The notes under the pieces: model-generated
Seen by the model: only the letters and a program-made list of their open reading frames with translations
The model's database searches: none
Told to the model about the DNA's origin: nothing
Assembly: GCF_018282115.1 (NCBI RefSeq)
Contig: NZ_CP054306.1
Location: 3,147,488 to 3,211,487 of the forward strand
From: Synechocystis sp. PCC 7338
Lineage (GTDB): Bacteria; Cyanobacteriota; Cyanobacteriia; Cyanobacteriales; Microcystaceae
Length of the DNA stretch: 64,000 nt
Direction of reading: 5' to 3'
In this document: in pieces, positions 7,828 through 36,931 of the stretch
Position numbering within the stretch: the stretch's first letter is position 1
Layout: each line of letters opens with the position of its first letter
Program-made: the position numbers and the translations under genes

Positions 7828-7832
7828 GGCAC

Positions 7833-9722: not shown

Positions 9723-9834
9723 GGGTTGCTGCACCAAGGATAATTTAGTCTTCTACCAATGCGATTTCTGCTTTATTGTTAGGCAATTCCTTTCCCCCCC
9801 GGGTTAATGAAAGGATCATGAATGTTTATCGGCC

Positions 9835-10161
9835 TTAGATAGCAAAATCGTAACTATCTACCATGTGAAAGCTTTGATGCAGTCCTGTTTGTTCAATGGT
9901 ATCGTTAACCATTTCTTGAGTCCCTACCAAAAAAATCTCTACCCCCGTTCCCATTTTTTGTTTGGCGAATACCAAAACCCTTAAACCAGCGCTAGACATA
10001 TATTCTAACTGATCCATCATCAAAACTAATTTGGTGATATTGGCTTGGGCCGCTGTTTCGATTTGTTCTTTAAACAAGGGAGCAGTACCCCCATCTAATT
10101 CGCCGATGAGGGTTAATTTTGCCTGACCATTAATGGTTTCCAATTCAATGCTAAAAGCCAT
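9835..10161 (-). CDS. STAS-domain anti-sigma factor antagonist (Slr1859-like)
   Basis: A 108-residue single STAS domain. The motif QLEYMSSAGLRVLVF places the phosphorylatable serine at Ser57, in the position used by SpoIIAA and RsbV. It lies between glgX and icfG on the same strand. In PCC 6803 the equivalent protein is one of two phosphoproteins of the icfG cluster and is a substrate of IcfG. It would bind an RsbW-like kinase when unphosphorylated. It differs from the second STAS protein at 12.3-12.7 kb, so the two probably serve different partners. Confidence 0.92.
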   Translation of the reverse strand: MAFSIELETINGQAKLTLIGELDGGTAPLFKEQIETAAQANITKLVLMMDQLEYMSSAGLRVLVFAKQKMGTGVEIFLVGTQEMVNDTIEQTGLHQSFHMVDSYDFAI

Positions 10162-10208
10162 GGTTATAAAAAAGAATAATTGAATAAAATTAGGTTTGCT
10201 TTGGTAGT

Positions 10209-12332: not shown

Positions 12333-12338
12333 GGTGGC

Positions 12339-12671
12339 CTAAGAAAATGCGTTCTTGCCTTCAGCAAGGGTGGGACAAATCGAGAAAAAGTCGAGAAAAC
12401 CAGTTACGGCCATGGTGTCCAGTAGTTCCTCTGAAAGGCCGACTAGAACCAGTCGGGCGGAGTTACCTTTAGTTTGGCGATAGAGGTAGAGCAAAAGTCT
12501 TAACCCGGCGCTGGACATGTAGGGCACCCCGGTCATATCCAAGAGAATCTTTGCCCCCGGCTGGGCATGGGGAAGAATAGCTTGGTGGACTTGGGGAGCG
12601 GTGTTGGCGTCTACTTCCCCTCCTAAGGTGACAAGGATAATGTCTTCCTGTTGGTCAATCTGAATATCCAT
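12339..12671 (-). CDS. STAS-domain anti-sigma factor antagonist (Slr1856-like)
   Basis: A 110-residue STAS domain with the motif GVPYMSSAGLRLLLYLY. The phosphorylatable serine is Ser54. In PCC 6803 the equivalent protein is phosphorylated by the RsbW-like kinase and dephosphorylated by IcfG. It sits between the AGE epimerase gene (9 bp gap) and glgX (6 bp gap), which argues for one transcript. The C-terminal tail after TGFLDFFSICPTL is normal for the family. Confidence 0.93.
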   Translation of the reverse strand: MDIQIDQQEDIILVTLGGEVDANTAPQVHQAILPHAQPGAKILLDMTGVPYMSSAGLRLLLYLYRQTKGNSARLVLVGLSEELLDTMAVTGFLDFFSICPTLAEGKNAFS

Positions 12672-12680
12672 GGATTTGGG

Positions 12681-14504
12681 TTAGTGGGTGGGAATTAAAC
12701 GAACTTTTACTTTGACCCTTTCCTGGGTGTCGGGAAGCTGGACTGTCAGCTGTTGGGCATCAAAATTTTCGTATGGTTGTCCGTCAATTTCCACACTGGC
12801 GATCGCCACACTGCCGGGGGGAAGAATATCGGGGGCGACTCTTAAAATCCCGTCGGGGAAACTATTCGGCAGAGGCTTAAAGTAAAAGTCCATGGGGTGC
12901 TTGGTGATCAAGAAATTGGTATATACCGCCGCCAGATAGCACAATTCAAAGGAATGGTAACCACTCATGGAATGACTCCCCTTGGCCCGTTCGTTACCAC
13001 CGGCTAAGTAGGGGATGCCATTGGCGAGAACGTTAAAATAAATACCCCCATCCTCCAAATCCAGGAACCAAGCATTGTAAAAAGCGGCCGCTTCCCGAGC
13101 ATGGCGATGGTATTCGTCGCTATCTAAAGCCCCCCCCATGATCAGGTAGGCCAAAATGGCCTGTTCCTGCTGCCACCAGGCTTTGCGGTCATGCCAAACA
13201 AATTGATGGTAACCACTGTTGTTGTCCAGTAGGCGCTCCACTACGTCGTACCAGCCGCCCCGCTGTTGGTCACTGCCCACCGCCGGCATGAGGTCAGAAA
13301 TCTTCTTGGCCAACTCCACATATTTTTCCTTGGGTTTGAGGCTATTCATGCGCATCAAGTTCCAGGCAATTTTGAGGTTATGGCCCACCACCGCTCGATT
13401 TTGTTGCCAACCCCAGGTGGTGTCGTGGCTCCAATCTTCGTAAAATCTTTCCTGCACAAAGGGGCTGTTGTCGTAATCGGGAAAGTACTTCTCAATGGTG
13501 TCGAAGGTATATTCCAACATGTCTGCATATTTTTGTTCCCCGGTGGCGAGCAAAAGGTTAATTAAATAGGCTGGCGCATGGTCTCCGACAGAATTCCAAT
13601 TCTTCCTAGCTTGGTTGCGCCCCAAGGATTCACTGCGGGGATCGAGCATTAACGGGTCGAGGTGGGAGAAATAGCCGCCGTACTCGCTTTTATCTAAGAA
13701 AAATTTGTCAAATAGCTTGATGGTCTGCTCGGCGTCGTGGAGAATACGGCGATCGCCAGTGCAACGGTAGGTTTGGATTGGCCCGGCTAAGGCATAGATT
13801 TGTTCGTAGGCAGGAATAGCATCGTAGTCATCGCCAAATTCCGAAGCAAATATTTTTTGCTCCTTTTCCCCCTGCACATCAATGGCATGGTACCAATAAA
13901 TAATATCTTCGTCCTTATCTACAAAGCGCATGTGCTCCCGCAAATATTCCGTCCCTTTCTCCGCCGCTTCCAAGAATTGGTCTTCCCCGGTCATCATAAA
14001 GGCCGTGGCAAAACCATAAACAAGCCGGGAAATCGTATCCGTTTCTTGGCGAAAATTTACCGTTGAACGCTCGCCGCTCACGGATAAATCGGTGCGATAG
14101 TTACGGTAATCAATTTCTTCTGTGCCAAATTGAGCCTTAACATAAAACTTACCCAGGGCATAAACCTGTTTAATCCACCAATCCTGCTTTTCAAAGACAT
14201 ATTCCTCGGCTTTTTTACCAGCAAAAACCACCTGTTTCCCGTCAAAAATATCGCTGTCTGGATAAAAAACACCATAGACAAACAGAAATCTGCCGGGAGT
14301 CAACCAAGCCCCCATGGTTCCCGTTGCATCGATGTAGGCTTCATCAAAATTTTGGATTACCTTGGCATAGGCCATGGGACTAAGCTTAACTTTGAATTCC
14401 CGGTGATCGGAAGTGCTGAGGACAAAAATGCCATCCTCGGCGTTATAGCTCACCACATAACCAGCAATCAAATCAGAAACGGGGAAATTAATTCGAGCAT
14501 TCAT
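12681..14504 (-). CDS. N-acylglucosamine 2-epimerase (AGE) family protein
   Basis: A 607-residue protein. Residues about 100-530 form an (alpha/alpha)6-barrel of the AGE/cellobiose epimerase type, with segments such as YFSHLDPLMLD, KNWNSVGDHAPAYLI, VVGHNLKIAWNLMR and YHQFVWHDRKAWWQQEQAI, whose His residues probably bind the sugar. An N-terminal beta domain (about 1-90) and a C-terminal beta domain (about 540-607) flank it, making it longer than simple AGE enzymes. It is cytoplasmic, with no signal peptide. The context (glgX, STAS antagonists) suggests a role in saccharide metabolism; the true substrate is unknown. Confidence 0.85.
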   Translation of the reverse strand: MNARINFPVSDLIAGYVVSYNAEDGIFVLSTSDHREFKVKLSPMAYAKVIQNFDEAYIDATGTMGAWLTPGRFLFVYGVFYPDSDIFDGKQVVFAGKKAEEYVFEKQDWWIKQVYALGKFYVKAQFGTEEIDYRNYRTDLSVSGERSTVNFRQETDTISRLVYGFATAFMMTGEDQFLEAAEKGTEYLREHMRFVDKDEDIIYWYHAIDVQGEKEQKIFASEFGDDYDAIPAYEQIYALAGPIQTYRCTGDRRILHDAEQTIKLFDKFFLDKSEYGGYFSHLDPLMLDPRSESLGRNQARKNWNSVGDHAPAYLINLLLATGEQKYADMLEYTFDTIEKYFPDYDNSPFVQERFYEDWSHDTTWGWQQNRAVVGHNLKIAWNLMRMNSLKPKEKYVELAKKISDLMPAVGSDQQRGGWYDVVERLLDNNSGYHQFVWHDRKAWWQQEQAILAYLIMGGALDSDEYHRHAREAAAFYNAWFLDLEDGGIYFNVLANGIPYLAGGNERAKGSHSMSGYHSFELCYLAAVYTNFLITKHPMDFYFKPLPNSFPDGILRVAPDILPPGSVAIASVEIDGQPYENFDAQQLTVQLPDTQERVKVKVRLIPTH

Positions 14505-14528
14505 GGGGATTCAGTAACGATTTAAAAT

Positions 14529-15125
14529 CTAAGCTTCGATTTGCTCAACAAAAACTTTAACAAATTGCTCAATCATGCCAGGGTGTTTGCCGGTAATTAG
14601 ATCGCCGTCAATCACTAACTCAGAAGTTTGATCTCCTTCGTAAACAACATCAGCTCCAGCATTTTCCACGTCACAAATAATGTTGTGGGCGCAAGTAACT
14701 TTTTTTCCCTTAAGTAAATCGGGATCAGCGCAAAACAGCCACAAACTATGGCAAATAGTGCCTAATTTCAATCCTTTAGTAGCCACCGCCTTGCGCAGAA
14801 AAACCACCCCCGGAGCTTGATTTTTTTCTCCTTTTTTCACTGTAGCTTGGTACCGTAGACGATCCATGGCGTAGGCCCCAATGGCAATGATGCCTTTGTA
14901 ATTTTTGGGGTCAATATCATTAACCTCCGTTGTGACGGTGACATGGTATTCTACCTGATCATTTTCTGGGTTAGAACCAAATTTAAGTTCTGGCTGCCCC
15001 CAAAGGTGGCTGATGTATTCAACTTCATAACCATGGGCAGGAAAATATTCGTTGAACCAGCGGTATTCCGTGCCGTCAAAGTGTTCTTCAATAAGAACAC
15101 CAATTTTGCCTTTGATTGTTGCCAT
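14529..15125 (-). CDS. DJ-1/PfpI family protein
   Basis: A 198-residue protein of the class I glutamine amidotransferase-like superfamily. It opens with KIGVLIEEHFDGTEYRWFNEYFP, where Glu is in the PfpI acid position. The nucleophile elbow reads LGTICHSLWLFC with the reactive Cys near 122, followed by KKVTCAHNIICDVENAGADVVYEG. Family members act as deglycases, proteases or stress proteins; the exact role is unknown. It lies 24 bp downstream-adjacent to the AGE gene on the same strand and 181 bp from the preceding gene. That larger gap could hold an internal promoter. Confidence 0.88.
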   Translation of the reverse strand: MATIKGKIGVLIEEHFDGTEYRWFNEYFPAHGYEVEYISHLWGQPELKFGSNPENDQVEYHVTVTTEVNDIDPKNYKGIIAIGAYAMDRLRYQATVKKGEKNQAPGVVFLRKAVATKGLKLGTICHSLWLFCADPDLLKGKKVTCAHNIICDVENAGADVVYEGDQTSELVIDGDLITGKHPGMIEQFVKVFVEQIEA

Positions 15126-15306
15126 GGTTACTATTTAGATGAATTATTTCAGGTTAATTAAGATTAACAAAAAGAACTAGTTAAATTAGCAGTGGGTAGT
15201 GAAAGCTATCTCCAATCTGTGCCCATAAAATTACGGTCGTATTGAAGCAGATTTTGTCTTAGTTAACTTTAGGATTTTCAATCGTGCAGAAAAGGCTATC
15301 ACACCT

Positions 15307-15648
15307 TTAGGAAGATGGCTCAAAAATTGTCTTGAAGGCGGCGAAGGCACTGGCCGCTTTGTTGAATCCACCATAGACACACATGAACAAGAGCACTTCT
15401 TCGATTTCTTCCTTAGTTACCCCTTGTTTAAGAGCCATATCCACATGGGCTTGGAAGGGGCCGTTTAGGGTTTGGTTGGCCACGTCCACCGCAATAACAA
15501 TCAAAGCTTTGGTTTTTTGATCAATCAAAGGTAAACCCCAAGCTTCCCCCGCCGCTCGGGTACAGAAGTCACCAAATTTAGGGTTAATGCCGCCTAAAAT
15601 TGCTTGCAGATCCTGATCATCTAATACGGCATTTTTGAACTCACTCAT
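15307..15648 (-). CDS. Carboxymuconolactone decarboxylase (CMD/AhpD-like) family protein
   Basis: A 113-residue single-domain protein starting MSEFKNAVLDDQD. The family core IDQKTKALIVIAVDVANQTLNG and VDMALKQGVTKEEIEEVLLFMCVYGGFNKA is clear. The AhpD CxxC motif is absent: the Cys in LFMCVYGG stands alone, so peroxidase activity is unlikely. The ATG at 15648 is chosen over upstream in-frame codons because it restores the family N-terminus and leaves an 11-bp gap after the preceding gene. It is part of the same minus-strand operon; its function is unknown. Confidence 0.87.
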   Translation of the reverse strand: MSEFKNAVLDDQDLQAILGGINPKFGDFCTRAAGEAWGLPLIDQKTKALIVIAVDVANQTLNGPFQAHVDMALKQGVTKEEIEEVLLFMCVYGGFNKAASAFAAFKTIFEPSS

Positions 15649-15659
15649 GGGGCCAACTC

Positions 15660-16235
15660 CTAGGTGGTGATAAGTTTCAGCAAATTGTCCGGGGCAAACA
15701 CATCGCGGTAGAAAGTAAGTTGTTCGGTTTTGAGGTAACAACCGCCCCGGTGACCCCGCCGCACCCAGGTGACATTACCCTTGGCAATGGTCTCGTAGGT
15801 TTCGTCATCCACACACTTCCACTCAAAGAAAGTATGCTCACCATAGAACATGACAATGGGCCAGACCATGGTTACCCCTGGCTGGGCGATGAGGGCCCAC
15901 CAGTGCTTTTCCCGTTCTTGTTGTTGCTCCAAACCAGAGTAGGGGCCGTCCTGGCAAAAATACACCAAATCCTCCCGATACTCTCCGGTGAGAATGTCCC
16001 CCCGCCCCTGGCGCAGGGCTTCACAGTGGGTAGGCCACCAGTCCTTATTTTCTTGCTCAATGATTTCTAAGGTGTAGTTGGCATCAATGGCGGGCAAGGT
16101 GGCTTCTTTCATGGCCACATATTTAAGCCCTTCTTCGATTAGTTTCTGCCGTAGACCTTCCGGAACTAGCCCTGGTTGGGAATAGTTAGCCTTCAGGTTT
16201 AAATAATAATTTCTTCTTGCTGGCATAGATGACAT
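15660..16235 (-). CDS. NTF2/SnoaL-like conserved protein (Slr1852-like), first gene of the icfG-side operon
   Basis: A 191-residue protein starting MSSMPARRNYYLNLKANY. The core from about 60 on (DWWPTHCEALRQGRGDILTG, then YRED, GPYSGL and EHTFFEWKCVDDETYETIAKGN) looks like a nuclear-transport-factor-2 or SnoaL fold. The catalytic residues cannot be assigned. It is cytoplasmic and small. Its position at the 5' end of the minus-strand block makes it the likely promoter-proximal gene of the operon that leads to glgX and icfG. A longer reading from 16271 exists, but the ATG at 16235 fits the homologue length I remember (about 190). Confidence 0.8.
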   Translation of the reverse strand: MSSMPARRNYYLNLKANYSQPGLVPEGLRQKLIEEGLKYVAMKEATLPAIDANYTLEIIEQENKDWWPTHCEALRQGRGDILTGEYREDLVYFCQDGPYSGLEQQQEREKHWWALIAQPGVTMVWPIVMFYGEHTFFEWKCVDDETYETIAKGNVTWVRRGHRGGCYLKTEQLTFYRDVFAPDNLLKLITT

Positions 16236-16749
16236 AAAGATAACCCAAAAGGAATCTAATGGCGCAAACAATAGGGCATAAACAGGATTTTATCTTTCCC
16301 GTTGACCGATGGTTTGTTCAAAAGCATACCATGGCTTTATACCATGGGCTCTACTGTGACGAAATGTTACTTAAAACATCCTTGGGGCAGGTGCGTTTAA
16401 GCTTATTTTTCCTGCCTTGTCCTTGGGTAAGTGCTCTTTTAGTCAGGAAAGTTTGACTTTGGCGATCACCGAAATTTTTACATCCATGACAAGGACTACA
16501 TCTGAATTCTTGACGTAACAATCGGCACACTAGTTAATGTGAAAAAATGTTAAAAAAATAACGCTTGTTTAAGGTTTTTCTTATAATAGCTTGGGACGAC
16601 TCGGCGTGCTATTCTTTTTTCCAAAGCGCTACGGAGGGGTCTCTAATCCCACAATTAACAGGGGGCATGGAATCTCATGAGTTTTCCAGTACTGCTAGCA
16701 CTGCTTGTTTACTGGCCGCCATTTAACTATTCTTGCAATCATCTATGCC
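16236..16749. promoter_or_regulatory. Divergent intergenic region between the icfG-side operon and the exported-enzyme cluster
   Basis: About 510 bp without a convincing gene. On the plus strand TATAAT at 16582-16587 is a good -10 hexamer for the ABM gene, though no -35 at normal spacing was found. On the minus strand TAAAAT-like and TATAAA-like hexamers occur between 16280 and 16345. The word ATACCATGG appears twice, at 16326-16334 and 16339-16347, 13 bp apart. An AGGGGG sits just before a 19-codon reading frame at 16668-16727, which may be chance. Confidence 0.45.
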
Positions 16750-17190
16750 ATGAAAACTAGAGCTTTATTCCGTGGTCAGGCAGTTTTGCTCGGGGTACTT
16801 TTGACCCTAGTGATTCCACTGTTTTTTTTGTTGAGTATTTTTCTCCTTCCTTTGCCAGCTTGGGCAGATACCGATGACGTAGCCAATCAGTCTATTATCG
16901 TGGCAGGTAATATCAAGGTAAGACCGGAGAAAAGACAAGAATTCATTGCCCTGTCCCAAACTTTTATTGAGCCTTCTCGGTCGGAACCTGGTTGCATATC
17001 CTACAGTTTTTACGAAGATGAAACGGAGGATAACAAATTTTTATTTTTTGAAGTATGGCGAAATCGTGCGGCCTTAGATTACCATTTTCAGACTCCTTAC
17101 TTTCATGAATTTGTTGAGAAATCTCCAGATTTATTGGCTAAAGCAGCAGAAATCAAAGTCTATAAAATAGCTGGGTTTGAAACATTATAA
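16750..17190 (+). CDS. Exported antibiotic-biosynthesis-monooxygenase (ABM) domain protein
   Basis: A 146-residue protein. It begins MKTRALFRGQAVLLG, has a long hydrophobic signal segment and a probable cleavage after AWA. The mature domain (SIIVAGNIKVRPEKRQEFIA, SRSEPGCISYSFYED, FFEVWRNRAALDYHFQTPYF) is a standard ABM/YgiN-type ferredoxin-like dimer fold. Such proteins oxidise quinols or break down haem, but most bacterial ones are of unknown role. An export signal on an ABM protein is uncommon. A start 15 codons upstream (16705) is possible; 16750 gives a cleaner signal peptide. The next gene starts 24 bp downstream. Confidence 0.82.
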   Translation: MKTRALFRGQAVLLGVLLTLVIPLFFLLSIFLLPLPAWADTDDVANQSIIVAGNIKVRPEKRQEFIALSQTFIEPSRSEPGCISYSFYEDETEDNKFLFFEVWRNRAALDYHFQTPYFHEFVEKSPDLLAKAAEIKVYKIAGFETL

Positions 17191-17214
17191 ATTTCTGTCA
17201 ACCTCCATAAGAAC

Positions 17215-18012
17215 ATGAAAAATTTTTCCCTGCTGTTGTCTCGATTATTACTAGTTTTGTTGATAGTTATGGGAACCCTGACTATAATCAGCCCCAAAGC
17301 ATTGGCGATCGCCACGTTGGATAATTTTCCCACCCCCAACGTAGAGAAAACAGAAAAAATTCTGGGGCCAGCGGGGGAAATTTTTGAGTTCTCCACCTGT
17401 AATGCCGAGGGAATTGGTTTCACCATTGCCAATGCCCAAATTCCTGCTGGGGCAGGGCCATTACCCCACATTCACCACTACACCAACGAGTGGTTTTGGA
17501 CTCCCCAGGGCGGTTTAGAGTTATTTCAAAGCATAAAAGAATACCCCGATCTAGACAATCCTGCCACGGTCAATCAGGGGGGAAATACCACCATTTACAC
17601 AGTGCAAACCGAGCCCAATCAAATTGTCTACGGCCCCAAATATCGAGTGCATGGTTTTGTTAATGTCACCTCGGAAACTCGTCCCCTTACTTTCATTTGG
17701 CGGCAGGATCCCACTTCCCCAGAATACAAATTTCATGATGGCGGTATTCGTGAGTATTTCCAAGACGTGGGCATTCCAATTAAAAGTATGAAAAAACTGC
17801 CAAAAATCACTGATCAGGCCAGGGAAAAATTCGTTACCCACGCCCCTGACTATGGCATCAACCAAAGTTACTATTTTTTGCAGTATGTTAACAAGGTTGA
17901 TAATCAGCCGCCGGAGACCCTGGGCAATCTCCAAGACGATCAAAGTTTAAGTGAGATTATTGAAGCGATTAATGCCTATAATCAAGGCGACAGTTCTGTT
18001 ACATGTTTTTAG
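17215..18012 (+). CDS. Periplasmic cupin-like protein, copy 1
   Basis: A 265-residue protein with a signal peptide (MKNFSLLLSRLLLVLLIV..., likely cut after ALA near residue 31). The core reads AQIPAGAGPLPHIHHYTNEWFW then GGLELFQ and later YRVHGFVNVT. The two His in PHIHHYTNEWFW plus the Glu, and the later His, form the metal site expected of a cupin. The end SSVTCF pairs with an early STCN, a possible disulfide. It shares clear similarity along its length with the protein encoded at 18266-19069. It resembles a periplasmic protein of unknown function known from PCC 6803 (Slr1406, by memory). Substrate unknown. Confidence 0.82.
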   Translation: MKNFSLLLSRLLLVLLIVMGTLTIISPKALAIATLDNFPTPNVEKTEKILGPAGEIFEFSTCNAEGIGFTIANAQIPAGAGPLPHIHHYTNEWFWTPQGGLELFQSIKEYPDLDNPATVNQGGNTTIYTVQTEPNQIVYGPKYRVHGFVNVTSETRPLTFIWRQDPTSPEYKFHDGGIREYFQDVGIPIKSMKKLPKITDQAREKFVTHAPDYGINQSYYFLQYVNKVDNQPPETLGNLQDDQSLSEIIEAINAYNQGDSSVTCF

Positions 18013-18039
18013 TCTTTCGAGAATTTTTAGGGGAAATTT

Positions 18040-18210
18040 ATGAATAAGGAATTAGGCTTTGCTATTCTTGGAGGATGGATTTTGGGAGTAATTTTTGGCT
18101 TTTTCAAGTTACCCCTACCCGTCCCGCCGTTTGAAGGCTTAGTTGCTGCAGGGGCATGCCTTTTGGGGCAGGTTACTTACACTTTGATTAAGCAAAAATT
18201 TGGTTTTTAG
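18040..18210 (+). CDS. XapX-domain (DUF1427) small membrane protein
   Basis: A 56-residue protein, MNKELGFAILGGWILGVIFG and onward, with two short membrane segments separated by KLPLPVPPFEGLVAAG. The paired Pro-rich turn and the Gly-rich first helix are the signature of the XapX family, small inner-membrane proteins of unknown function. A purine-rich stretch (TAGGGGAAAT) sits directly ahead of the ATG at 18040. It lies between the two cupin paralogues, 27 bp after the first and 55 bp before the second. Co-transcription is therefore likely. Confidence 0.72.
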   Translation: MNKELGFAILGGWILGVIFGFFKLPLPVPPFEGLVAAGACLLGQVTYTLIKQKFGF

Positions 18211-18265
18211 AAATTTAAAAATATTTTCTGATCAACACTTATTCTCAATTTAGGGGAAGTTAACT

Positions 18266-19069
18266 ATGTTCAGGCTTAAAAGTTGGGGTTGGGCTGTGGT
18301 GTTGGCGATCGCCGTGGGAGGGGTAGTCTTTTTCCAAAATTTGGCTCAATCTAAGGATTTGCTTGCCCATAGCATTGAAAATATTCCCATGCCAAAGTTG
18401 GAAAATCCCCTGCGAATTCTGACCCCTGCCAACGAAATCTTTGAAATTGCTTCCTGCTCCACCAAGGACTTTGGCTTTGCCATTGCTAATGCTCAAATTC
18501 CCCCTGGTGCTGGGCCTTTACCCCATGTCCATTACTACATCAATGAATTTTTCTGGCCTCCCCAGGGGGGCATCGAAATTTTCCACAGTGAACGTAAGTT
18601 TCCCGACATCAATGAGCCACCTACCATGGATGGGGCTGGCCGCGCCCCCTTGTACAGTGTTACGCCCCAACCAAAGCAAGTGATTTATTCGCCCCATACC
18701 TTTATGCACGGCTTTGTTAACCCCACAGATCAAACTTTGCCCATCACCATGATCTGGGTGCGGGATGCGGTAGCTCCAGACTTTGAATATCACGATGGCG
18801 GAATGCGGGAATATTTCTCTGCCGTTGGGGCCCACATTGAGGACTTGAACAACTTGCCCACTGTCACCTCTGCGGAACGGAACGCCTTTGTCACTGAAGC
18901 GCCAAAGTTCGGCATTAACCAAAGCTCGTTTATGATGCAGTATGTTTCTGCCATTAGTGATAAATTTCCGAATAATTTGGCCAAGCTGGAAAATACAAAA
19001 GCCTTGACTAAAGTGGTGGAAACAATTGAAGCTTTTAACCGTGGCGATAAATCGGTAACTTGCTCATGA
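18266..19069 (+). CDS. Periplasmic cupin-like protein, copy 2
   Basis: A 267-residue paralogue of the product of the gene at 17215. It has a signal segment near residues 8-30 and the matching core AQIPPGAGPLPHVHYYINEFFW, GGIEIFHSERKFPD and FMHGFVNPTD, plus the shared tail KFGINQSSFMMQYVS and a terminal VTCS. The cupin His pair is kept, but the second copy reads HVHYY instead of HIHHY. GGGGAAG eight bases before the ATG is a good ribosome-binding site. Its stop overlaps the next start as ATGA (19066-19069), so translation of the isomerase is coupled to it. Confidence 0.83.
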   Translation: MFRLKSWGWAVVLAIAVGGVVFFQNLAQSKDLLAHSIENIPMPKLENPLRILTPANEIFEIASCSTKDFGFAIANAQIPPGAGPLPHVHYYINEFFWPPQGGIEIFHSERKFPDINEPPTMDGAGRAPLYSVTPQPKQVIYSPHTFMHGFVNPTDQTLPITMIWVRDAVAPDFEYHDGGMREYFSAVGAHIEDLNNLPTVTSAERNAFVTEAPKFGINQSSFMMQYVSAISDKFPNNLAKLENTKALTKVVETIEAFNRGDKSVTCS

Positions 19070-19929
19070 TTGCCTCTCCCCAAATCAAATTTGGAGTTCA
19101 TACCTTTATCTGGAAAAAAGAATTTCTGGGGGAAGAAGAGTATGTTTTTGCAGAAGCAAAAGCTTGGGGTTTTGATGGGGTAGAAATTGCCAGCCACTTC
19201 TTTGATCAAATTGATCCTGGACGTCTGAAGGATTTTGCTTGTCAATCAGGCTTGGAGCTAACGTTTTGCACTAGTTTACCTCCGGGTTTATCCCTGACCA
19301 CCGAGGATGAAGCCGGTTGGCGGGATTCCATTGCCTATCTACAAAGGGCAATTGCATTCTGTCAGCAATGTGGCATCACCCAACTGTCGGGACCGTTTCC
19401 CCATCCTGTGGGTCAACTCAGTGGGGAACCCCTACAAAAAAAGGAAACCATTCGTATGCAGGATGCCTTTAAGTTGGTGGCGGAAACCCTGGTTAAAACT
19501 GATATTAGATTGGCGATCGAGCCCCTAAATCGCTTTCAAGGTTATGCTCTAAACACCGTATCCCAAGGTTTAGAATTGCTCGATGCAGTGAATTGCTCTC
19601 AACTGGGACTATTACTGGATTTATTCCACATGAATATTGAAGAAAAAGATGTACTTCAAGCTTTTCATCAGGCAGGAAGTAGTTGCTTTCATATCCACGC
19701 CTGCGCTAAGGACAGAGGAACCCCCGGTAGTGATTCTTTTCCTTGGGATGATTGGTTTCAAGTTTTGCAAGAAATTAATTATCGAGGTTGGGTAACCATT
19801 GAAAGTTTTAATTTTGAAGACAAAGAATTAGCTTCCGGAGCCCGTCTTTGGCGTCCCCTAGCTCCTAGCAGTGCAGATATTGCCAGGGATGGAGTGAAAT
19901 TTCTGCGGCAAACTTACCAAAATCAATAA
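19066..19929 (+). CDS. Sugar phosphate isomerase/epimerase family TIM-barrel protein
   Basis: A 287-residue cytoplasmic protein of the AP-endonuclease-2-like barrel family (xylose isomerase-like). It opens QIKFGVHTFIWKKEF. LAIEPLNRFQGYALNTV carries the first metal-binding Glu, LGLLLDLFHMNIEE the Asp and His, FHIHACAKDRGTPG a metal His, and GWVTIESFNFED the second metal Glu. This fits ketose 3-epimerases and related enzymes. Start: ATG 19066, within the ATGA overlap with the upstream cupin gene; TTG 19060 is possible but less likely. It is one of two cytoplasmic enzymes of the cluster, so imported products may be processed here. Confidence 0.86.
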   Translation: MIASPQIKFGVHTFIWKKEFLGEEEYVFAEAKAWGFDGVEIASHFFDQIDPGRLKDFACQSGLELTFCTSLPPGLSLTTEDEAGWRDSIAYLQRAIAFCQQCGITQLSGPFPHPVGQLSGEPLQKKETIRMQDAFKLVAETLVKTDIRLAIEPLNRFQGYALNTVSQGLELLDAVNCSQLGLLLDLFHMNIEEKDVLQAFHQAGSSCFHIHACAKDRGTPGSDSFPWDDWFQVLQEINYRGWVTIESFNFEDKELASGARLWRPLAPSSADIARDGVKFLRQTYQNQ

Positions 19930-19949
19930 ATTTATCAAGTAAATAAACT

Positions 19950-20837
19950 ATGAATAATCCCTTTATTTCCATCACCCTGCCATCTGGGTTTGACCACATC
20001 TACACCAATGTTGATGGAGTAACTCTCCATGCCATTGAAGGGGGAAGCGGGCAACCATTACTTTTACTTGGTGGCTGGCCCCAAACCTGTTATGTCTGGC
20101 GGTTATTGCTAGAAAAATTGGGACAACATTTCCGAGTTATTGCTTTAGATATGCGGGGTCAAGGGGATTCGGATATTCCCGATGGCCCCTATGATTGCGG
20201 TACAGCGGCAAGGGAAATCCAATCCTTTTTAGCAAAAAAAGAGATTAATTCTTTTTACTTAGTAGGTCACGACGTAGGGGCTTGGGCTGCCTTTACAGTG
20301 TTGAAATTTTTTCCCGACGCAGTGCTTGGAGCTGGGTTAATTGATGCGGCTATTCCTGGCTTAGTTAGTAATGATTTCTTTTCTGTGGTTAATGCCCCAA
20401 AAGTTTGGCAATTTTATTTCCATATGGTACCAGATTTAGCCAGTAGCTTGGTAGCGGGAAAAGAGAGGGAATATCTCAGTTGGTACTTCACTAACAAATC
20501 TAAGCGCAAGCAAAATCTCACTCCAGAAGTAATAGATTACTATGCCCGTTACTACAGTCGTCCTGGGGCGATGAAAGCTGGTTTTCTGTGGTATTCAGCC
20601 TTGGAGGAAACAACTAAAGCTAACACCCCAACCGAGGCTATCCGTTTTACCCAGCCCATTTTTGCTATGGGGGGGGAGTGTGCTACTAAATCGTTAATTT
20701 ATAACGGTATTTCTCCCTATTGTGATGACATTACTAGTTACGTAATTGAACAGTGTGGTCATTACATTCCGGAGGAAGCACCGGAGGAAATTTTGCAGGC
20801 AATTTTAACCACTTTTACTACTACCAAGGAGTCTTGA
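19950..20837 (+). CDS. Alpha/beta hydrolase, epoxide-hydrolase type
   Basis: A 295-residue cytoplasmic alpha/beta hydrolase. The oxyanion segment GGWPQTCYVWRLLLEKL precedes VIALDMRGQGDSDIP and the nucleophile elbow YLVGHDVGAWAAF, in which Asp replaces Ser. That Asp is typical of epoxide hydrolases and haloalkane dehalogenases. The catalytic His is in VIEQCGHYIPEEAP. There is a lid domain from about 140 to 210. It is 20 bp after the isomerase gene and 3 bp before the deacetylase gene, so the three are one transcript. The substrate cannot be inferred. Confidence 0.88.
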   Translation: MNNPFISITLPSGFDHIYTNVDGVTLHAIEGGSGQPLLLLGGWPQTCYVWRLLLEKLGQHFRVIALDMRGQGDSDIPDGPYDCGTAAREIQSFLAKKEINSFYLVGHDVGAWAAFTVLKFFPDAVLGAGLIDAAIPGLVSNDFFSVVNAPKVWQFYFHMVPDLASSLVAGKEREYLSWYFTNKSKRKQNLTPEVIDYYARYYSRPGAMKAGFLWYSALEETTKANTPTEAIRFTQPIFAMGGECATKSLIYNGISPYCDDITSYVIEQCGHYIPEEAPEEILQAILTTFTTTKES

Positions 20838-20840
20838 ATT

Positions 20841-21848
20841 ATGCAACGAAGAGATTTGTTTAAATATGGTTTAGCCACCGGGGCTGGGGCGATCGCCAGT
20901 TATAGCTTCATGGGGGCTAAACCTTTACTGGCCCAGCAATCACCCGTTAGGAATGGCAAGTTTTGGCCCGACGATATCCGTTTACCGATTTCCCTTTCCC
21001 TCATGTTTGAAACGGGCAGTCAACCGGCAAAAGGCGCTCCTACTCCCTTTGGAAACTTTACGCCGCCGCCGGATTACTACGATATGCCTACCATTACCTG
21101 GTATCGGTACGGCTACACGGAAGGAGTGCCTCGCATTCTTGATTTGCTAGATAAGTACAAGATTAAAATGACATCCCATATGTCCGGGCGCACAGTGGAA
21201 ATGTACCCAGACCGGGCGAAGGAAATTGTTCAACGTGGCCATGAAGCGGCGGCCCATGGTTGGGATTGGGACAATGAATTTAATATGACAGCCGTCCAGG
21301 AAAGGGATTTTATTCAACGTAACGTGGATATAGTACTAAAAGTTACGGGGCAGCGACCAGTAGGCTACAATGCACCAGGTTTACGAGGCTCAGTCAACAT
21401 TCTTACTGTACTGAACGAATTGGGCTTTGTTTACCACATTGACGATGTCAGCCGAGATGAACCTTTCATTGTTAATCTTAACAATGAAAGGTTCATTATG
21501 GTGGTACCCTATGCAGTTTATATGAATGATATTCGTGCCTATGAAGCCCGTTATTTTCCCTCGGAGCTATATTTAACTGAACTAAAACGTTCCTTCGATC
21601 GCCTTTATGAGGAAGCGGCTTACCGTCGCCGGATGATGGCGGTAACTATGCACGATCGCCTGCAACGGCCGGAGCACGTTGATGTGTTTGAAGATTTTCT
21701 TAAATATGTAATGAAGAAACCAGGGGTGGCATTTATGAAAAAAATTGACATTGCCAACTTCGCTTTGAACGACAAAAATACCATTCGTGAAGACATTCAA
21801 AATGTTTATCCCAATGTGCCTAATTTTGTCCCCGGTGCCACCAGTTAA
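20841..21848 (+). CDS. Tat-exported polysaccharide deacetylase, PuuE/allantoinase type
   Basis: A 335-residue protein with a twin-arginine signal MQRRDLFKYGLATGAGAI and probable cleavage after LLAQ. The NodB-like barrel starts LPISLSLMFETG, where Glu stands in the place of the usual DD pair, as in PuuE-type enzymes. The metal His pair lies in RGHEAAAHGWDWDNEF, and RPVGYNAPGLRGS is a further family motif. AAGGAG at 20826-20831 is a good ribosome-binding site. Such enzymes open cyclic ureides or remove acyl groups from sugars. Folded export by Tat suggests a bound metal. It closes the enzyme part of the plus-strand cluster. Confidence 0.86.
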   Translation: MQRRDLFKYGLATGAGAIASYSFMGAKPLLAQQSPVRNGKFWPDDIRLPISLSLMFETGSQPAKGAPTPFGNFTPPPDYYDMPTITWYRYGYTEGVPRILDLLDKYKIKMTSHMSGRTVEMYPDRAKEIVQRGHEAAAHGWDWDNEFNMTAVQERDFIQRNVDIVLKVTGQRPVGYNAPGLRGSVNILTVLNELGFVYHIDDVSRDEPFIVNLNNERFIMVVPYAVYMNDIRAYEARYFPSELYLTELKRSFDRLYEEAAYRRRMMAVTMHDRLQRPEHVDVFEDFLKYVMKKPGVAFMKKIDIANFALNDKNTIREDIQNVYPNVPNFVPGATS

Positions 21849-21898
21849 TTAACTCTAATATCCAGACAATCTTTTTATTTTTGAACAAAAACTAACCC

Positions 21899-22426
21899 AT
21901 GCTCAAATCAATTTTTGCTCCGTTACTAACCACCGTTGCTTTAACCGGTTTAACTCTGCCGGCCTTTGCCTTAGAAGAAACCCCTGTCCTATCATCGACC
22001 GTTGCCATTCAAGCGGCCCAAGCGGCGATCGCCGCTTGTCTTCAAGAAGGTTATGGGGTAACTGCCACAGTGGTTAATCCCGAAGGCAACGTGCTAGTGG
22101 TAATTCGTAGCGATGGGGCTTTGGTGCATACGGTGCAAACTTCATTTAATAAAGCCTATTCCGCTGTTACGTTGGCTGCCAATCATAATCTGGAGGCAAC
22201 TTCCGGGATTCTCGCTTCTATGCAGGCCAAGGGAGCCCAGGGAGTCGGGACATGGCCTATGCCCGCCGATCCTCTCACTGGCATCACCCTTTTTCCCGGT
22301 GGAGTGAATTTACTTTCCCAGGGCAAAGTGGTGGGGGGTTTGGGGGTGTCCGGTACCCCCGATGGCAAAATTGATGAACGCTGTGCTCTTAAAGGCCGAG
22401 ATGTCGTTTTGCCAGATTTACGTTAA
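21899..22426 (+). CDS. Exported HbpS/GlcG-family (DUF336) haem-binding-like protein, copy 1
   Basis: A 175-residue protein with a signal peptide ending near AFA (residue 24). The domain (AIAACLQEGYGVTATVVNPEGN, VVIRSDGALVHTVQTSFNKAY, PLTGITLFPGGVNLLSQGKVVGGLGVSG, DERCALKG) is of the HbpS/GlcG type. Family members bind haem or sense redox stress in the periplasm. Some cyanobacterial ones are of unknown role. It is the last gene of the plus-strand group and faces another propeller/HbpS group on the minus strand. A similar copy is encoded at 24474-25019. Confidence 0.85.
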   Translation: MLKSIFAPLLTTVALTGLTLPAFALEETPVLSSTVAIQAAQAAIAACLQEGYGVTATVVNPEGNVLVVIRSDGALVHTVQTSFNKAYSAVTLAANHNLEATSGILASMQAKGAQGVGTWPMPADPLTGITLFPGGVNLLSQGKVVGGLGVSGTPDGKIDERCALKGRDVVLPDLR

Positions 22427-22470
22427 ATCGCCAAAAATTGCCAAGCTTGGGGGAAATACTAATTTTCTCC

Positions 22471-23475
22471 CTACTTCAACTCCAGCAAAATAATGGTGCC
22501 ATGGTAAGCGGCGATCGCCAAATTTTTCCCGTTGGGATGAAAGGACACACTGCCCAATCTTTCCAAATTTGGATTGTAACTATCTAACAAACTACCCTGC
22601 AAATTCCAGAGCCGTAAAACTCCGTCATCGGAAACGGTGGCGATTAGATTGTTCTCATTGATGGCAACCCCGGTAACCCAACCATCATCAAGCACATCAA
22701 TTTTTAATAGTTCTTGACCTTGGAGATTAAAAACCCGAGCAGTACCATCAAAACCACCAGAAACCAATAACTTGCCATCTTTACTAAAACGAACACTATT
22801 GAGGCGGCCTTGATTGGTTTCAATAATTTTCACCACTTCCCCCGCCAGATTTAGCAAGGTAATTTCGCCAATATCTTGGGTAACTGCAATTAGATTTGCC
22901 TGGGCATTAAAGTCCATATTCCGACTTACCCCTGGGCGAGTCACTGTAAACAGCGGCTCCTTAATATTCGACCACCCCTTAATGGTGCCATCGTCGGAAC
23001 TGGTGGCCACCCCCATATCTTCACTAAAGAAAACCACATCAGTAACGGCGGAAGTGTGTCCCCTAATTTCCCCCAAAATATTGCCTTGCAGATCCCAAAT
23101 ACGAGCAACACCATTGTAACCGGCGGTAATAATAGCCGCTCCGTCAGGACTGAATGCCCCATTGAAAATCATCGCTACAGGACTACCGGCAAATTTTTTT
23201 ACCAATTGCCCGTCCATTGTCCAAAGTTTTGCCAAACCATCGGTGGCCGTTGAGAGCAAATAATTGCCGTCTCCACTGTAATGAATTTGGATAATGGCTT
23301 CCCCTTTAAGCTCATGGCCTAGATAGGTTTTAATTACCTCCAACTCTATTTGGGATGGGGGTTTATTTTCCTTAACGGCATAATGGGTAAAGGGTACAGT
23401 CTGGGCAATAACATTAGGGCCGCAAAAACTGATCGTTAAACCGAGGCAAAAACCGGCTAAAAATTTGTATCGCAT
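22471..23475 (-). CDS. Periplasmic WD40-type beta-propeller, copy 2
   Basis: A 334-residue protein with a signal peptide (MRYKFLAGFCLGLTIS..., likely cut after AQ near residue 25). Repeats such as GAFSPDGAAIITAGYNGVARIW, GVATSSDDGTIKGW and SVRFSKDGKLLVSGGFDGTA give a seven-bladed WD40 propeller. Eukaryote-like WD40 proteins are normally intracellular; here export is clear. It lies 14 bp after the other propeller gene. PCC 6803 has two such periplasmic WD proteins side by side (Slr1409 and Slr1410, by memory). It probably acts as a protein-binding scaffold; the partner is unknown. Confidence 0.84.
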   Translation of the reverse strand: MRYKFLAGFCLGLTISFCGPNVIAQTVPFTHYAVKENKPPSQIELEVIKTYLGHELKGEAIIQIHYSGDGNYLLSTATDGLAKLWTMDGQLVKKFAGSPVAMIFNGAFSPDGAAIITAGYNGVARIWDLQGNILGEIRGHTSAVTDVVFFSEDMGVATSSDDGTIKGWSNIKEPLFTVTRPGVSRNMDFNAQANLIAVTQDIGEITLLNLAGEVVKIIETNQGRLNSVRFSKDGKLLVSGGFDGTARVFNLQGQELLKIDVLDDGWVTGVAINENNLIATVSDDGVLRLWNLQGSLLDSYNPNLERLGSVSFHPNGKNLAIAAYHGTIILLELK

Positions 23476-23489
23476 ACAACCATCAATCC

Positions 23490-24473
23490 CTAATTAGATA
23501 CATTAAAAATCCAAATTTGCCCTTGATTGCTAGTGACGGCCAATTGATTACCGTCAGGGGAAAAACTTAAACTAGTTAGCTTGCCATTATTCAACGGTAA
23601 TTCCTGTAATAAAAGACCGTCTGTTTGCCAAAGTCTTAAAGTACCGTCGTCACTGCCAGTGGCAATCCACTGCCCATCGGGATGAAATTGGGCGCTATTA
23701 GTCCATCCCATTATGGGATTCTTAACTTCTGCAATCAAGGTTCCATCTAGCTGCCATAACTTTGCCGAACCATTAGTGCCAGCCGTCAGTAACTGTTGAC
23801 CATCAGGACTAAAACTGACATTATTGATCCGCCCTTGGCCAGTGGCAATTTCTCGATCTATCTCCCCATTGGAATTGATTAAATAAAGGGAACCATTATC
23901 GGAAACACTAGCAATCAAAATACCTTGGGGATGATAGGCTAAATTTCGAGCTGTGCCGGGGTTTAAAACCCCCACTAATTTTTCCCCCTGCCGAGTAAAA
24001 ATTTGGACTTGGCCGTCATCAGAACAGGTGACAATGGTTTGGCCATCGGGGCTAAATAGGACATCGGCCACTGCCGCTCGATGGGGACGTTGTTCTTGCA
24101 GTAGCTCCCCCTGTAAATTCCACAGGCGAATAGTACCGTCATAGCCAGTGGTAATTAAAGTTTGGCGATCGGGAGCAAAGCGGGCGTTAAACATGGGGGG
24201 TTTTTGTCCCTGCAATTCTACCAGTTTTTGTCCGTCCTTAGTCCATAAAGTGCCCACACCATCGGCAGAAGCAGTCAGTAACAATTCTCCATCGGGACTG
24301 AAATGGATGCGATTGAGAGCAACTTCACTGCCCACAAACTGCTGCTGTAAATCTAGCGTAATTGCTGATTTTTTTTGGTTAATGGAGACGGGAATATTGG
24401 CGTCTGCGGTGCTAATTTCCGGGCTGATGGCCGAAAAACCTAGGACAAGGAAAATGATCGGCAAGATTCTCAT
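23490..24473 (-). CDS. Periplasmic WD40-type beta-propeller, copy 1
   Basis: A 327-residue protein with a signal peptide (MRILPIIFLVLGFSA..., cut near ADA). Seven clear WD repeats can be counted: FSPDGELLLTASADGVGTLW, FAPDRQTLITTGYDGTIRLW, FSPDGQTIVTCSDDGQVQIF, then YHPQ, FSPD, FHPD and FSPD blades. It starts directly after the stop of the HbpS-like gene with no gap (TAA then ATG), so they are translationally linked. Together with the following propeller gene this forms a three-gene unit facing the enzyme cluster. Function unknown. Confidence 0.86.
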   Translation of the reverse strand: MRILPIIFLVLGFSAISPEISTADANIPVSINQKKSAITLDLQQQFVGSEVALNRIHFSPDGELLLTASADGVGTLWTKDGQKLVELQGQKPPMFNARFAPDRQTLITTGYDGTIRLWNLQGELLQEQRPHRAAVADVLFSPDGQTIVTCSDDGQVQIFTRQGEKLVGVLNPGTARNLAYHPQGILIASVSDNGSLYLINSNGEIDREIATGQGRINNVSFSPDGQQLLTAGTNGSAKLWQLDGTLIAEVKNPIMGWTNSAQFHPDGQWIATGSDDGTLRLWQTDGLLLQELPLNNGKLTSLSFSPDGNQLAVTSNQGQIWIFNVSN

Positions 24474-25019
24474 TTACGGCACCAAACGAGATTTGATTTT
24501 TTCAATACCCTTAATTCCACAGGCTTGGTCTAAGTTGCCATTGGGGGCACCGGAAACACCGATCGCCGCTATGAGTTGGTCTTCCACTTTGATAGCTAAT
24601 CCGCCAGTGCTGAAGTTAATGCCCGTGAGGGGATCCGGCGCTAAGGGCAGGGAACCCACCGGCAATGGTGCAGGGGTCATTTTTTCGGCGATCGCCTGGG
24701 TAGAATCCTGCTTGGTAATGGGTCCTAGAGTGATTACAGTAAAAGCTTTATAAAGACTATTTTCGATGGTGTGGGGAGTGGCCCCATCCCCCCGGACAAC
24801 GGCCTGCACTAAACCTTCATGGTTAACCACTGTGGCAGTGACATTGTAGCCATCCCCTTGACAACTATTCACCGCTTCCATAGCAGCCTCTACCGCCAGG
24901 GCCACCGGTAATTGATAATAGGTTTTTAAAGCTAGGGCACTGGAGGAAAAAGTCAAAGATAGGCCAAGAGAAATCCCCAGCACTAGACAGGGACGAAAAA
25001 CTATTTTTTTCAATTTCAC
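24474..25019 (-). CDS. Exported HbpS/GlcG-family (DUF336) haem-binding-like protein, copy 2
   Basis: A 181-residue protein; the signal segment KIVFRPCLVLGISLGLSLTF ends near ALA. The domain AAMEAVNSCQGDGYNVTATV, VVRGDGATPHTIENSLYKAF and PDPLTGINFSTGGLAIKVED matches the HbpS/GlcG fold. A terminal DQACGIKG mirrors DERCALKG of the copy at 21899. A start at GTG 25019 (VKLKKIVFRP) gives a compact signal; a TTG at 25043 would add eight residues. It heads the minus-strand unit, with the propeller start immediately after its stop. Confidence 0.82.
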   Translation of the reverse strand: MKLKKIVFRPCLVLGISLGLSLTFSSSALALKTYYQLPVALAVEAAMEAVNSCQGDGYNVTATVVNHEGLVQAVVRGDGATPHTIENSLYKAFTVITLGPITKQDSTQAIAEKMTPAPLPVGSLPLAPDPLTGINFSTGGLAIKVEDQLIAAIGVSGAPNGNLDQACGIKGIEKIKSRLVP

Positions 25020-25339
25020 AGGAAGCTCTCTGGAGTAAAACAATCCTAATTTTACTCATATTTGGCGTATTTGACTTTCCCTGGGGAAACCCTACATCTG
25101 GCCCCAAAGGGTCACTGGAGAATGGGAGCAGGGGGACAATTTTGTTCTACATGTGAATTGTATTTCAGGTGGGGCAACGAGCGCATCAATGAACATCTAG
25201 TTACCGCAGACCTGATACGTAACTGCTCCTCAGGTATACACTATCGTGGGAAAGTGAAGCCTATACCAGAAGCCTTGATTTGATGTAGGAGAACTTCACG
25301 ATTTTATTTACTGGGGCCAGGCCCCATCCAATGGGTTAA
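25020..25339. other. Intergenic region downstream of the giant gene
   Basis: About 320 bp. It holds the 3' side of the giant gene and the promoter side of the minus-strand HbpS gene. A reading frame at 25062-25283 (plus) has the look of a decayed C-terminus but matches no family I can name. The only clear structure is the hairpin at 25312-25326. Nothing else was recognised. Confidence 0.5.
25312..25326 (-). terminator. Hairpin just past the stop of the giant gene
   Basis: TGGGGCC, one A, then GGCCCCA: seven perfect pairs with a one-base centre on paper, so the real loop must be larger. It lies 13 bp beyond the stop of the giant gene. No T-run follows on either strand, so it is a possible transcript-end structure rather than a classical terminator. 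Confidence 0.4.
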
Positions 25340-35821: not shown

Positions 35822-36931
35822 ATGAAACATTCCCGCAGAAATTTTCTTACCTTAGCCGGGGCGAGTTCCCTCCTAGCGATCGCCGCCCCAAAATTATTAG
35901 CCCAGGGCATTCCCCAGGAAATTTTAAACAAAATTTTGCCCCTGCCCGGTAAATATGGCGAGTATTATGGCCAAGCAAAAATTCGCGCCTTTCATCTCCA
36001 TAACCAACCAGAAACCAGTCCCTTACATAAAGCCCTAGAAGAACTGTGGATAGAGGTATTCAAACAAACAGAGGGAGAGCTATTTGTTTCCCCCATTCCC
36101 CACGACGCTTCCATCCCTGCCGGTGATCCCCAGGCAGTGCAATTTATTACCGATGGCCGTTTTGAAATTGTCAGCGTTGCCGGCCCCATCATTGACCAAG
36201 TAGCTCCCGATGTCATCGGTATTCAAAATATTGCCTTAATTTATCAATCTTCCCAGGATGCCTTTGAAATTATTAATCAGCCCCTATTTGCGGAAACCCT
36301 CAATGGCTCCGTTACCAAATATAACCTAACTTACTTGCCCTATGGAACCTTCGACAATGGCATGAGAGTTGTAACATCCATTGCCAATAAACCAATTTAT
36401 CAACTAGAAGATTTCCGTAATTTAACTATCCGTATTCCTCCTTCCAATGACATGGCCATGACCATGGCAGCCCTAGGGGCAATACCAGAAAAAGTTACGA
36501 TGAATCAGGTTTTTCAATCTCTCAAAAGTGGCGCAGTTCAAGCCCAAGAAAATCCCCTGTCCGTCGCCCTCGGTTTTAAACTGTACGAAGTGACCAAGTA
36601 TTTAAACATGACTAACCATGCTTGGTCTGGCTATAACACTTTTTTTAATACTGATTTCTGGAATAGTCTTTCCCCTGAAGTCCAGAAAGTAATTCAAAAT
36701 CTTTTACCGGTTTACCAAGCCAAACAAATCAAAGCCCAGGAAGAATATAACCAATATGCCTATGAGCAATTAGTTGGCACACTAGGGATGGTGGAAATTA
36801 AACCAAATTTATCCGGAGCTTCCCGAGAGTTAATTAAAGTATATCGTTCCATTTATAATCGTCTGAATCCCCAAGCCCAATCTTTGATTAGAAGTAAGTT
36901 GGAAGAAAGGACTGGCAGTAAGTTTGCTTAA
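35822..36931 (+). CDS. TRAP-type solute-binding protein (DctP family), Tat-exported, orphan
   Basis: A 369-residue protein with a twin-arginine signal (SRRNFLTLAGASSLLAIAAP, cut near LAQG). The DctP-type fold is recognised from RAFHLHNQPETSPLHKALEELW, FQSLKSGAVQAQENPLSVAL and KYLNMTNHAWSGYNTFFNT. Such proteins capture carboxylates for a DctQ-DctM membrane unit. No DctQ or DctM gene is in this window, so it either pairs with a distant permease or acts otherwise. Tat export of a TRAP receptor is known but not the rule. It is followed 41 bp later by a propeller gene. Confidence 0.85.
   Translation: MKHSRRNFLTLAGASSLLAIAAPKLLAQGIPQEILNKILPLPGKYGEYYGQAKIRAFHLHNQPETSPLHKALEELWIEVFKQTEGELFVSPIPHDASIPAGDPQAVQFITDGRFEIVSVAGPIIDQVAPDVIGIQNIALIYQSSQDAFEIINQPLFAETLNGSVTKYNLTYLPYGTFDNGMRVVTSIANKPIYQLEDFRNLTIRIPPSNDMAMTMAALGAIPEKVTMNQVFQSLKSGAVQAQENPLSVALGFKLYEVTKYLNMTNHAWSGYNTFFNTDFWNSLSPEVQKVIQNLLPVYQAKQIKAQEEYNQYAYEQLVGTLGMVEIKPNLSGASRELIKVYRSIYNRLNPQAQSLIRSKLEERTGSKFA

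Follow-up and report, generated by a model that had tools for sequence, protein, structure and literature searches.

The window analysed here, a stretch of 64,000 nucleotides of the Synechocystis sp. PCC 7338 genome (NZ_CP054306.1, positions 3,147,488 to 3,211,487), carries at positions 16750-25019 a cluster of genes for exported and cytoplasmic proteins that is near certainly the Synechocystis version of the published, functionally unsolved sll1783-1785/sll1304-1307 operon encoding the cupin CucA. Genes of this cluster recur together in cyanobacteria of four genera, and the block is likely to be a functional module. The function tentatively preferred, with considerable doubt, is a carbon-status-controlled periplasmic oxidation by copper cupins and an ABM-domain protein, which would feed epimerase and hydrolase steps in the cytoplasm; the substrate would most probably be of carbohydrate type, with phenolic compounds as the second candidate.

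Gene content of the cucA-type locus

The only PDB sequence matched by either of the two cupin genes, here named cupA and cupB, is Sll1785 (CucA, 2xl7), and the genes lie between an ABM-domain gene and a gene set of the sll1304-1307 type, divergently from icfG-type genes, as in the published operon. Locus tags other than sll1785 were assigned by gene order and published descriptions rather than from the PCC 6803 record. The first-pass annotation, made from the sequence alone, knew of no such pathway in cyanobacteria; as a locus it has already been described in Synechocystis PCC 6803. The window represents a different species, with cupB 67% identical to CucA, and a further genome of the genus (G003; G and L numbers are our handles for genomes and loci) has a copy with all block genes.

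According to the literature, three operons of PCC 6803 are repressed by salt (PMC8670252): slr1406-1410, sll1307-1304 together with the oppositely oriented sll1784-1785, and the icfG-containing slr1852-1862; the window shares the layout and protein families of this set. The same literature describes consistent regulation of sll1783-1785 over perturbations (PMC2924297), transcription of the sll1783 operon as a single unit and its link to cyAbrB1, and flocculation with more exopolysaccharide after deletion of the monooxygenase gene, printed as 'slr1783' in a review (PMC7690835). The locus and its salt co-regulation are thus already known, and this study adds the conservation of the block, a cupin-ABM fusion and a likeness to quercetinases. 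This novelty is judged against open-licence literature and not against the primary papers on the CucA structure, Sll1783 and the sll1783 operon, so these points may already be in print.

The region contains the following genes, with the matches on which their names are based:

16750..17190, plus strand: ABM-domain protein, exported (Sll1783-like), 146 amino acids; Pfam ABM E 1.7e-23, N-terminal signal by eye, ratio of non-synonymous to synonymous substitution rates (dN/dS) 0.11
17215..18012, plus strand: cupA, CucA-family cupin, exported; PDB 2xl7 (SLL1785) E 6.6e-81, invariant H-x-H, E and H columns
18040..18210, plus strand: XapX-like membrane-type protein of 56 amino acids; 98% identical in two relatives
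18266..19069, plus strand: cupB, CucA-family cupin, exported, the closest to CucA; 2xl7 E 1.1e-112, AlphaFold model with predicted local distance difference test score (pLDDT) 86 and Z 37.5 to CucA
19066..19929, plus strand: D-tagatose/ketose 3-epimerase-like TIM barrel; Pfam TIM barrel 6.7e-39, PDB D-tagatose 3-epimerase E 4.7e-29
19950..20837, plus strand: Cif-like epoxide-hydrolase-type alpha/beta hydrolase; Pfam alpha/beta hydrolase 1.2e-17, PDB 7jqz 9.6e-60, then Cif-like proteins
20841..21848, plus strand: PuuE-like CE4-fold protein with twin-arginine (Tat)-type export (Sll1306-like 'deacetylase'); CE4-type domain 2.7e-24, PDB PuuE 1.4e-28, RR signal
21899..22426, plus strand: HbpS-like protein 1 (HbpS1), exported; Pfam HbpS-like 4.4e-22
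22471..23475, minus strand: WD40 propeller 1, exported; Pfam WD40 1.5e-35
23490..24473, minus strand: WD40 propeller 2, exported; Pfam WD40 2.9e-48
24474..25043, minus strand: HbpS-like protein 2 (HbpS2), exported; Pfam HbpS-like 8.8e-22

All eleven genes of the region were recovered. The eight plus-strand genes (16750-22426) are close-packed, as first described, with successive gaps of 24, 27, 55, -4, 20, 3 and 50 bp, that is, gaps of 3-55 bp and one overlap. Where several overlaps had been reported, this is the only one, the 4 bp (ATGA) shared by the cupB stop and the start of the epimerase-like gene. A simple scan found no plus-strand terminator-like site before 21945. Beyond HbpS1 the minus strand carries the two propellers and then HbpS2. 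Signal sequences, judged by eye rather than by a signal-peptide program, point to export of eight of the eleven proteins (the ABM protein, both cupins, the Tat-type CE4 protein, both HbpS proteins and both propellers); the earlier count of seven was right as to the presence of export signals and wrong as to their number, its own list coming to eight. The twelve genes tested are under purifying selection (dN/dS 0.005-0.142), six of the eight plus-strand genes being compared with two relatives (S. salina and G003) and the others with one.

The unit reaches past this region, to a divergent icfG-type operon (about 7396-16271, minus strand) and to SDR-DctP-propeller genes at 34996-38046, which include:

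35822..36931, plus strand: orphan DctP-type solute-binding protein with a Tat-type signal, a satellite of the block; 60% identity to a Pseudanabaena protein that is itself DctP (Pfam 9.8e-57)
36973..38046, plus strand: divergent propeller paired with DctP; 48% identity to the Pseudanabaena partner

The orphan DctP has no TRAP membrane part of its own alongside, the one DctM above cut-off in the genome lying far away. The name sll1314, presumably that of the published DctP, is not used here, no supporting paper having been found. In G003 (L031) the DctP gene follows HbpS2 within about 1 kb, whereas in the window a 9-kb gene lies between HbpS2 and the SDR-DctP genes. This gene (25340-34363, minus strand), placed between the block and its satellite, encodes a repeat-rich protein of 3007 amino acids (FG-GAP-like, by eye) with a long glycine-rich region. 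An Rfam scan of positions 12000-39000 returned nothing at gathering scores, and a promoter scan was uninformative, with 14 sites where shuffled sequence led one to expect 11.3. The divergent promoter region aligned well between the window and S. salina and poorly with G003, and no motif is claimed.

Co-occurrence of the block and its icfG-type neighbours

Profiles of the cupin, the epimerase-like protein and the hydrolase were run on 386 cyanobacterial genomes, and high-scoring matches to all three were found in exactly the same six, representing four genera: PCC 7338 itself (G000), S. salina LEGE 00031 (G004), G183, G222, G337 and G303. The best scores per genome were 158-510 bits in the six against 59 in the next genome for the cupin, 404-523 against 106 for the epimerase-like protein, and 452-558 against 302 for the hydrolase; the profiles included members from the matched genomes, which favours these scores, and the gaps to the next genome are wide nonetheless. 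At E 0.001 the cupin profile matched nine of the 386 genomes, of which G141, G166 and G226 (20.5 to 59.2 bits, against at least 158.4 in the six) were excluded from the strong set; the G141 match is the fusion protein described below. Many genomes have a weaker relative of the hydrolase (65/386 at E 1e-40).

The block genes are clustered in all six genomes (tblastn maps; the window itself for G000), as well as in Pseudanabaena sp. SR411, which belongs to another taxonomic order, and in G003, which is absent from the 386-genome matches, seemingly not drawn, and was counted apart. Co-occurrence of the genes across cyanobacteria had been set beforehand as the deciding check on the first-pass reading. 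The block came through it, and the division between exported oxidation-type proteins and an epimerase-like protein and hydrolase lacking signals is also conserved. The claim of a full pathway holds as far as this block and compartment split; the pathway itself is still something we infer, since the deacetylase and the named epimerase labels fail on motif or curated cut-off.

Gene content varies among the genomes. The G222 stretch holds only cupA, XapX, epimerase-like and hydrolase genes. Only G000, G003 and G303 were found to have the PuuE-like and HbpS1 genes in their blocks, the PuuE-like gene being missing from the five other stretches searched. The DctP gene and divergent propeller are present in G000, G003, G004, SR411 and G183; G337 has a DctP that is more distantly related, and the G222 and G303 stretches yielded none. 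In G303, a 2.1-Mb genome (L057), the PuuE-like protein and HbpS1 are 61-72% identical to those of the window and the cupins, epimerase-like protein and hydrolase about 28-38%, and from this gap the modules seem to have different histories. Two other genomes of the genus, G001 and G002, gave no cupin or epimerase match, and the surroundings of the second-tier hydrolases in G282 and G411 and of the weak epimerase match in G276 hold no block. A plasmid search with the hydrolase was uninformative (231 records, all below 60% identity).

The divergent operon encodes, from the block outwards:

15660..16271, minus strand: slr1852-like protein g203, icfG-linked; no Pfam family at E 0.01
15307..15741, minus strand: carboxymuconolactone-decarboxylase-family (CMD) protein; Pfam CMD 1.6e-16
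14529..15125, minus strand: DJ-1/PfpI-family protein; Pfam 2.1e-16
12681..14504, minus strand: AGE-like (slr1855-like) protein of 607 amino acids; weak cellobiose 2-epimerase matches
10209..12671, minus strand: GlgX debranching enzyme and anti-sigma-factor antagonist; NCBIfam GlgX 1.8e-212, ant_ant_sig 1.3e-29
7833-9737, minus strand: IcfG-like phosphatase; weak SiaA-type matches and synteny
7396-7827, minus strand: RsbW-like kinase; named by reading the open reading frame and by synteny

Relatives of the AGE-like gene were found in 35 of the 386 genomes, among them each of the six that carry the block, a co-occurrence with hypergeometric probabilities of 3.7e-7 by genome and 0.0013 by genus (relatedness not otherwise corrected for). 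The genes for GlgX, the anti-sigma antagonist and the AGE-like protein adjoin the block in G000, G003, G004, SR411 and G303. The AGE-like gene of G003 (L031:4056-5873, minus strand) has one in-frame stop and that of G222 is split into two parts separated by about 2.3 kb; both may be pseudogenes or sequence errors. Among 45 chosen genomes, g203 is present in 22 of the 28 bearing the AGE-like gene (27 from the AGE search plus G003; the exceptions are G041, G050, G264, G315, G317 and G399) and in none of the 17 lacking it. An AlphaFold model of g203, with a mean pLDDT of 41, was discarded. Loci of the icfG type elsewhere (L070, L071, L072) carry EthD, SnoaL, VOC, SDR or DUF4432 proteins, and in G002, which lacks the block, an EthD-SnoaL protein, an SDR and a DUF4432 protein lie between g203 and DJ-1. 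Carbohydrate-type company is also found at such loci (GlgX, AGE, DUF4432 and OprB). Downstream of the icfG-like genes in the window, on the minus strand, are a LarA-N-domain protein of 711 amino acids (5156-7291), a Mem_trans permease (4072-5142) and a solute-binding protein (2632-4023).

Protein families and the cupin-ABM fusion

The cupins, for which Pfam gave no match at E 0.01, are 46% identical to each other, and the ligand columns H87, H89, E94 and H148, corresponding to the H-x-H, E, H set of the CucA family, are invariant in 12/12 sequences. The cupB model superposes on CucA with Z 37.5 at 66-67% identity and has the same metal ligand motif. The window has two copies of this family, both predicted to bind Cu(II) in the periplasm. 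After CucA, the next nine entries of the structural ranking (rows 5-13) are all quercetinases, with Z 11.7-14.0, root-mean-square deviation 2.8-3.9, and 12-16% identity over 156-180 residues, and the entries following them are at Z 10.3; in the Foldseek order quercetinases lead and are then intermixed with other cupins. The quercetin dioxygenases concerned, the Ni form 5flh and 1juh/1h1i, which we take to be the fungal Cu form, resemble cupB in having a cupin fold, and quercetinase metal ligands presumably follow an H-x-H, E, H pattern too.

Distant relatives of the cupins stand apart from the block. In G226 (L058:7941-12413) three tandem cupins, distantly CucA-like and with signal- and anchor-like ends by eye, adjoin a GMC-type-looking oxidoreductase. 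A plasmid search with the cupin returned one record, a distant match on a plasmid of Pantoea sp. JZ29 (L064:14923-18598), where the gene of a CucA-like cupin with no evident signal shares a single base with the nearer of two FAD-dependent monooxygenase genes.

In G183 and G222 a fusion protein combining a CucA-like cupin region with an ABM domain is encoded alongside CMD and g203; in G141 such a protein is encoded at an icfG-type locus, next to CMD and with g203 close by (949-1155 amino acids; L065, L066, L067). The fusion provides independent support for the cupin and ABM proteins acting together. Of the three fusions examined, all have the H-x-H...E pattern, two show the second-motif histidine in the form looked for, and two a His-rich stretch. 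A search for the fusion matched 32/199 genomes at E 1e-10, four matches covering cupin and ABM parts and 28 the C-terminal part only, and in G183 and G141 an unfused ABM gene lies near that of the fusion as well, so fusion is not universal.

In the presumed cytoplasmic pair, putative catalytic residues are conserved. The epimerase-like protein retains E152, D185, H211, R217 and E246 in 8/8 sequences; these five residues, presumably metal ligands or catalytic in ketose 3-epimerases, are those of D-psicose/D-tagatose 3-epimerases, and the NCBIfam D-psicose 3-epimerase score is 151.3 bits against a cut-off of 300. The Cif-like hydrolase keeps D108, H158, Y215 and H271, also in 8/8, which we take to be the nucleophile Asp, the His/Tyr ring-opening pair and the His. 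Cif and Cif-like epoxide hydrolases are its best PDB family, and the protein differs in showing no export signal by eye; epoxide hydrolase activity is predicted.

The label of deacetylase given earlier to the CE4-fold protein was rejected: HGWDW replaces the HxxxH motif (HGYSH in 3qbu), and the second metal histidine is missing. The motif is kept in G303 and reads HGWNW in G003. PuuE allantoinase belongs to the same fold family (E 1.4e-28) and reads HGYRW, likewise carrying W instead of the second metal histidine, but the protein of the window is exported and scores 126.2 bits against the NCBIfam PuuE cut-off of 424.6. As for the XapX label, the open reading frame (18040-18210) exists, and its score to TIGR03510 is 19.2 bits, below the 27.8-bit cut-off. 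Its product is the most conserved member of the block within the genus, 98% identical in S. salina and G003 at dN/dS of about 0.006 and with diverged silent sites (dS 1.3 and 1.5). The ABM protein reaches 36.3 bits with LsrG, the closest named ABM enzyme in NCBIfam (cut-off 135). The HbpS proteins score 78.9 and 77.9 bits against a Pfam HbpS-like gathering score of 25, and their haem binding is putative.

Proposed function and alternatives

In the tentatively preferred scheme, the plus-strand operon would be one arm of the conserved block, under icfG carbon-status control. When carbon status is permissive, the cell would export the ABM protein and two Cu(II) cupins acting as a pair, which may oxidise a carbon compound with O2 in the periplasm or at the cell surface. 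The compound would most likely be carbohydrate-type (exopolysaccharide or a sugar-derived enediol or carbonyl) rather than phenolic, a choice favoured by the GlgX, AGE, DUF4432 and OprB company at icfG-type loci and by the published rise in exopolysaccharide on loss of the monooxygenase. The exported PuuE-like protein and/or the DctP binding protein, with the HbpS proteins and propellers, could assist in the periplasm, the XapX-like protein would sit in the membrane, and the ketose-3-epimerase-like and Cif-like proteins would finish the product in the cytoplasm. Oxygenase activity, the order of steps, the substrate and icfG control of the plus-strand operon are each put forward as what we infer from families and neighbourhood.

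Several observations weigh against this scheme. The AGE-like gene lies away from the block in G183, G222 and G337, so that block and icfG genes are not always neighbours. The quercetinase likeness of cupB is confined to the level of fold, and the epimerase-like, PuuE-like and ABM proteins all score below the cut-offs of the NCBIfam enzymes they matched. The company of CMD, EthD, SnoaL and ABM proteins, and the Pantoea cupin beside FAD monooxygenases, point equally to aromatic chemistry, and proteomics authors have suggested that CucA is a copper supply protein.

The aromatic alternative, rather unlikely, is the one that survives best. The copper cupins would be quercetinase-like ring- or enol-cleaving dioxygenases, and the ABM, CMD and Cif-like proteins would handle quinone or epoxide products, so that phenolics from plants or algae could be detoxified or used. 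The ranking of quercetinases directly after CucA, the ABM, CMD, EthD, SnoaL, VOC and Cif-like domains encoded by the block and icfG-type loci, and the Pantoea gene arrangement are as this alternative expects, as is G411, whose Cif-like hydrolase gene adjoins that of a small cupin with distant likeness to cupA (25%, E 1.5e-5); the ketose-epimerase-like, AGE-like and GlgX proteins among the partners, and glucose phenotypes of icfG mutants in the literature passages, fit it poorly.

It is improbable that the cupins serve copper handling, storing or passing copper to plastocyanin and oxidase while the other genes are unrelated stress genes. CucA is a periplasmic Cu(II) protein and Sec substrate that relies on copper ATPases for being loaded with metal and secreted (PMC4192464, PMC4284471), and a role in luminal copper supply has been suggested for it; the His-rich stretches of two of three fusions would also suit such a role. 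However, in distant genomes the cupins are again accompanied by these enzyme-like genes, cupin-ABM fusions exist, and a transcriptome paper on the copper response makes no mention of CucA or sll1785 in its main text, supplements aside. Envelope remodelling, in which the exported proteins would modify exopolysaccharide or the cell wall, centrally by deacetylation, is equally improbable: a cell wall role suggested by the salt-paper authors, the flocculating deletion mutant and the published term putative chitooligosaccharide deacetylase for Sll1306 speak for it, but the CE4-fold protein is PuuE-like, lacks the second metal histidine and has the narrow distribution given above.

A more specific proposal, improbable as it stands, is that CucA-type proteins are quercetinase-like Cu(II) enediol dioxygenases that oxidise reductone or dicarbonyl sugars with an ABM partner in the periplasm, the icfG locus being a docking site for interchangeable cassettes (cupin and ABM, EthD and SnoaL, DJ-1, VOC, epimerases) that would salvage or detoxify sugar-derived carbonyls at carbon excess. 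If true, it would explain what CucA does, a copper protein prominent in the periplasm of cyanobacteria, whose structure is solved and copper loading studied, and to which the literature passages available assign no enzymatic role. The comparison provides CucA with fixed partners (ABM, epimerase-like, Cif-like hydrolase and XapX-like proteins), a physical link in the fusion, a candidate reaction class in quercetinase-like oxygenation and a candidate regulator in icfG, which together make the function of this copper cupin testable in the standard laboratory strain.

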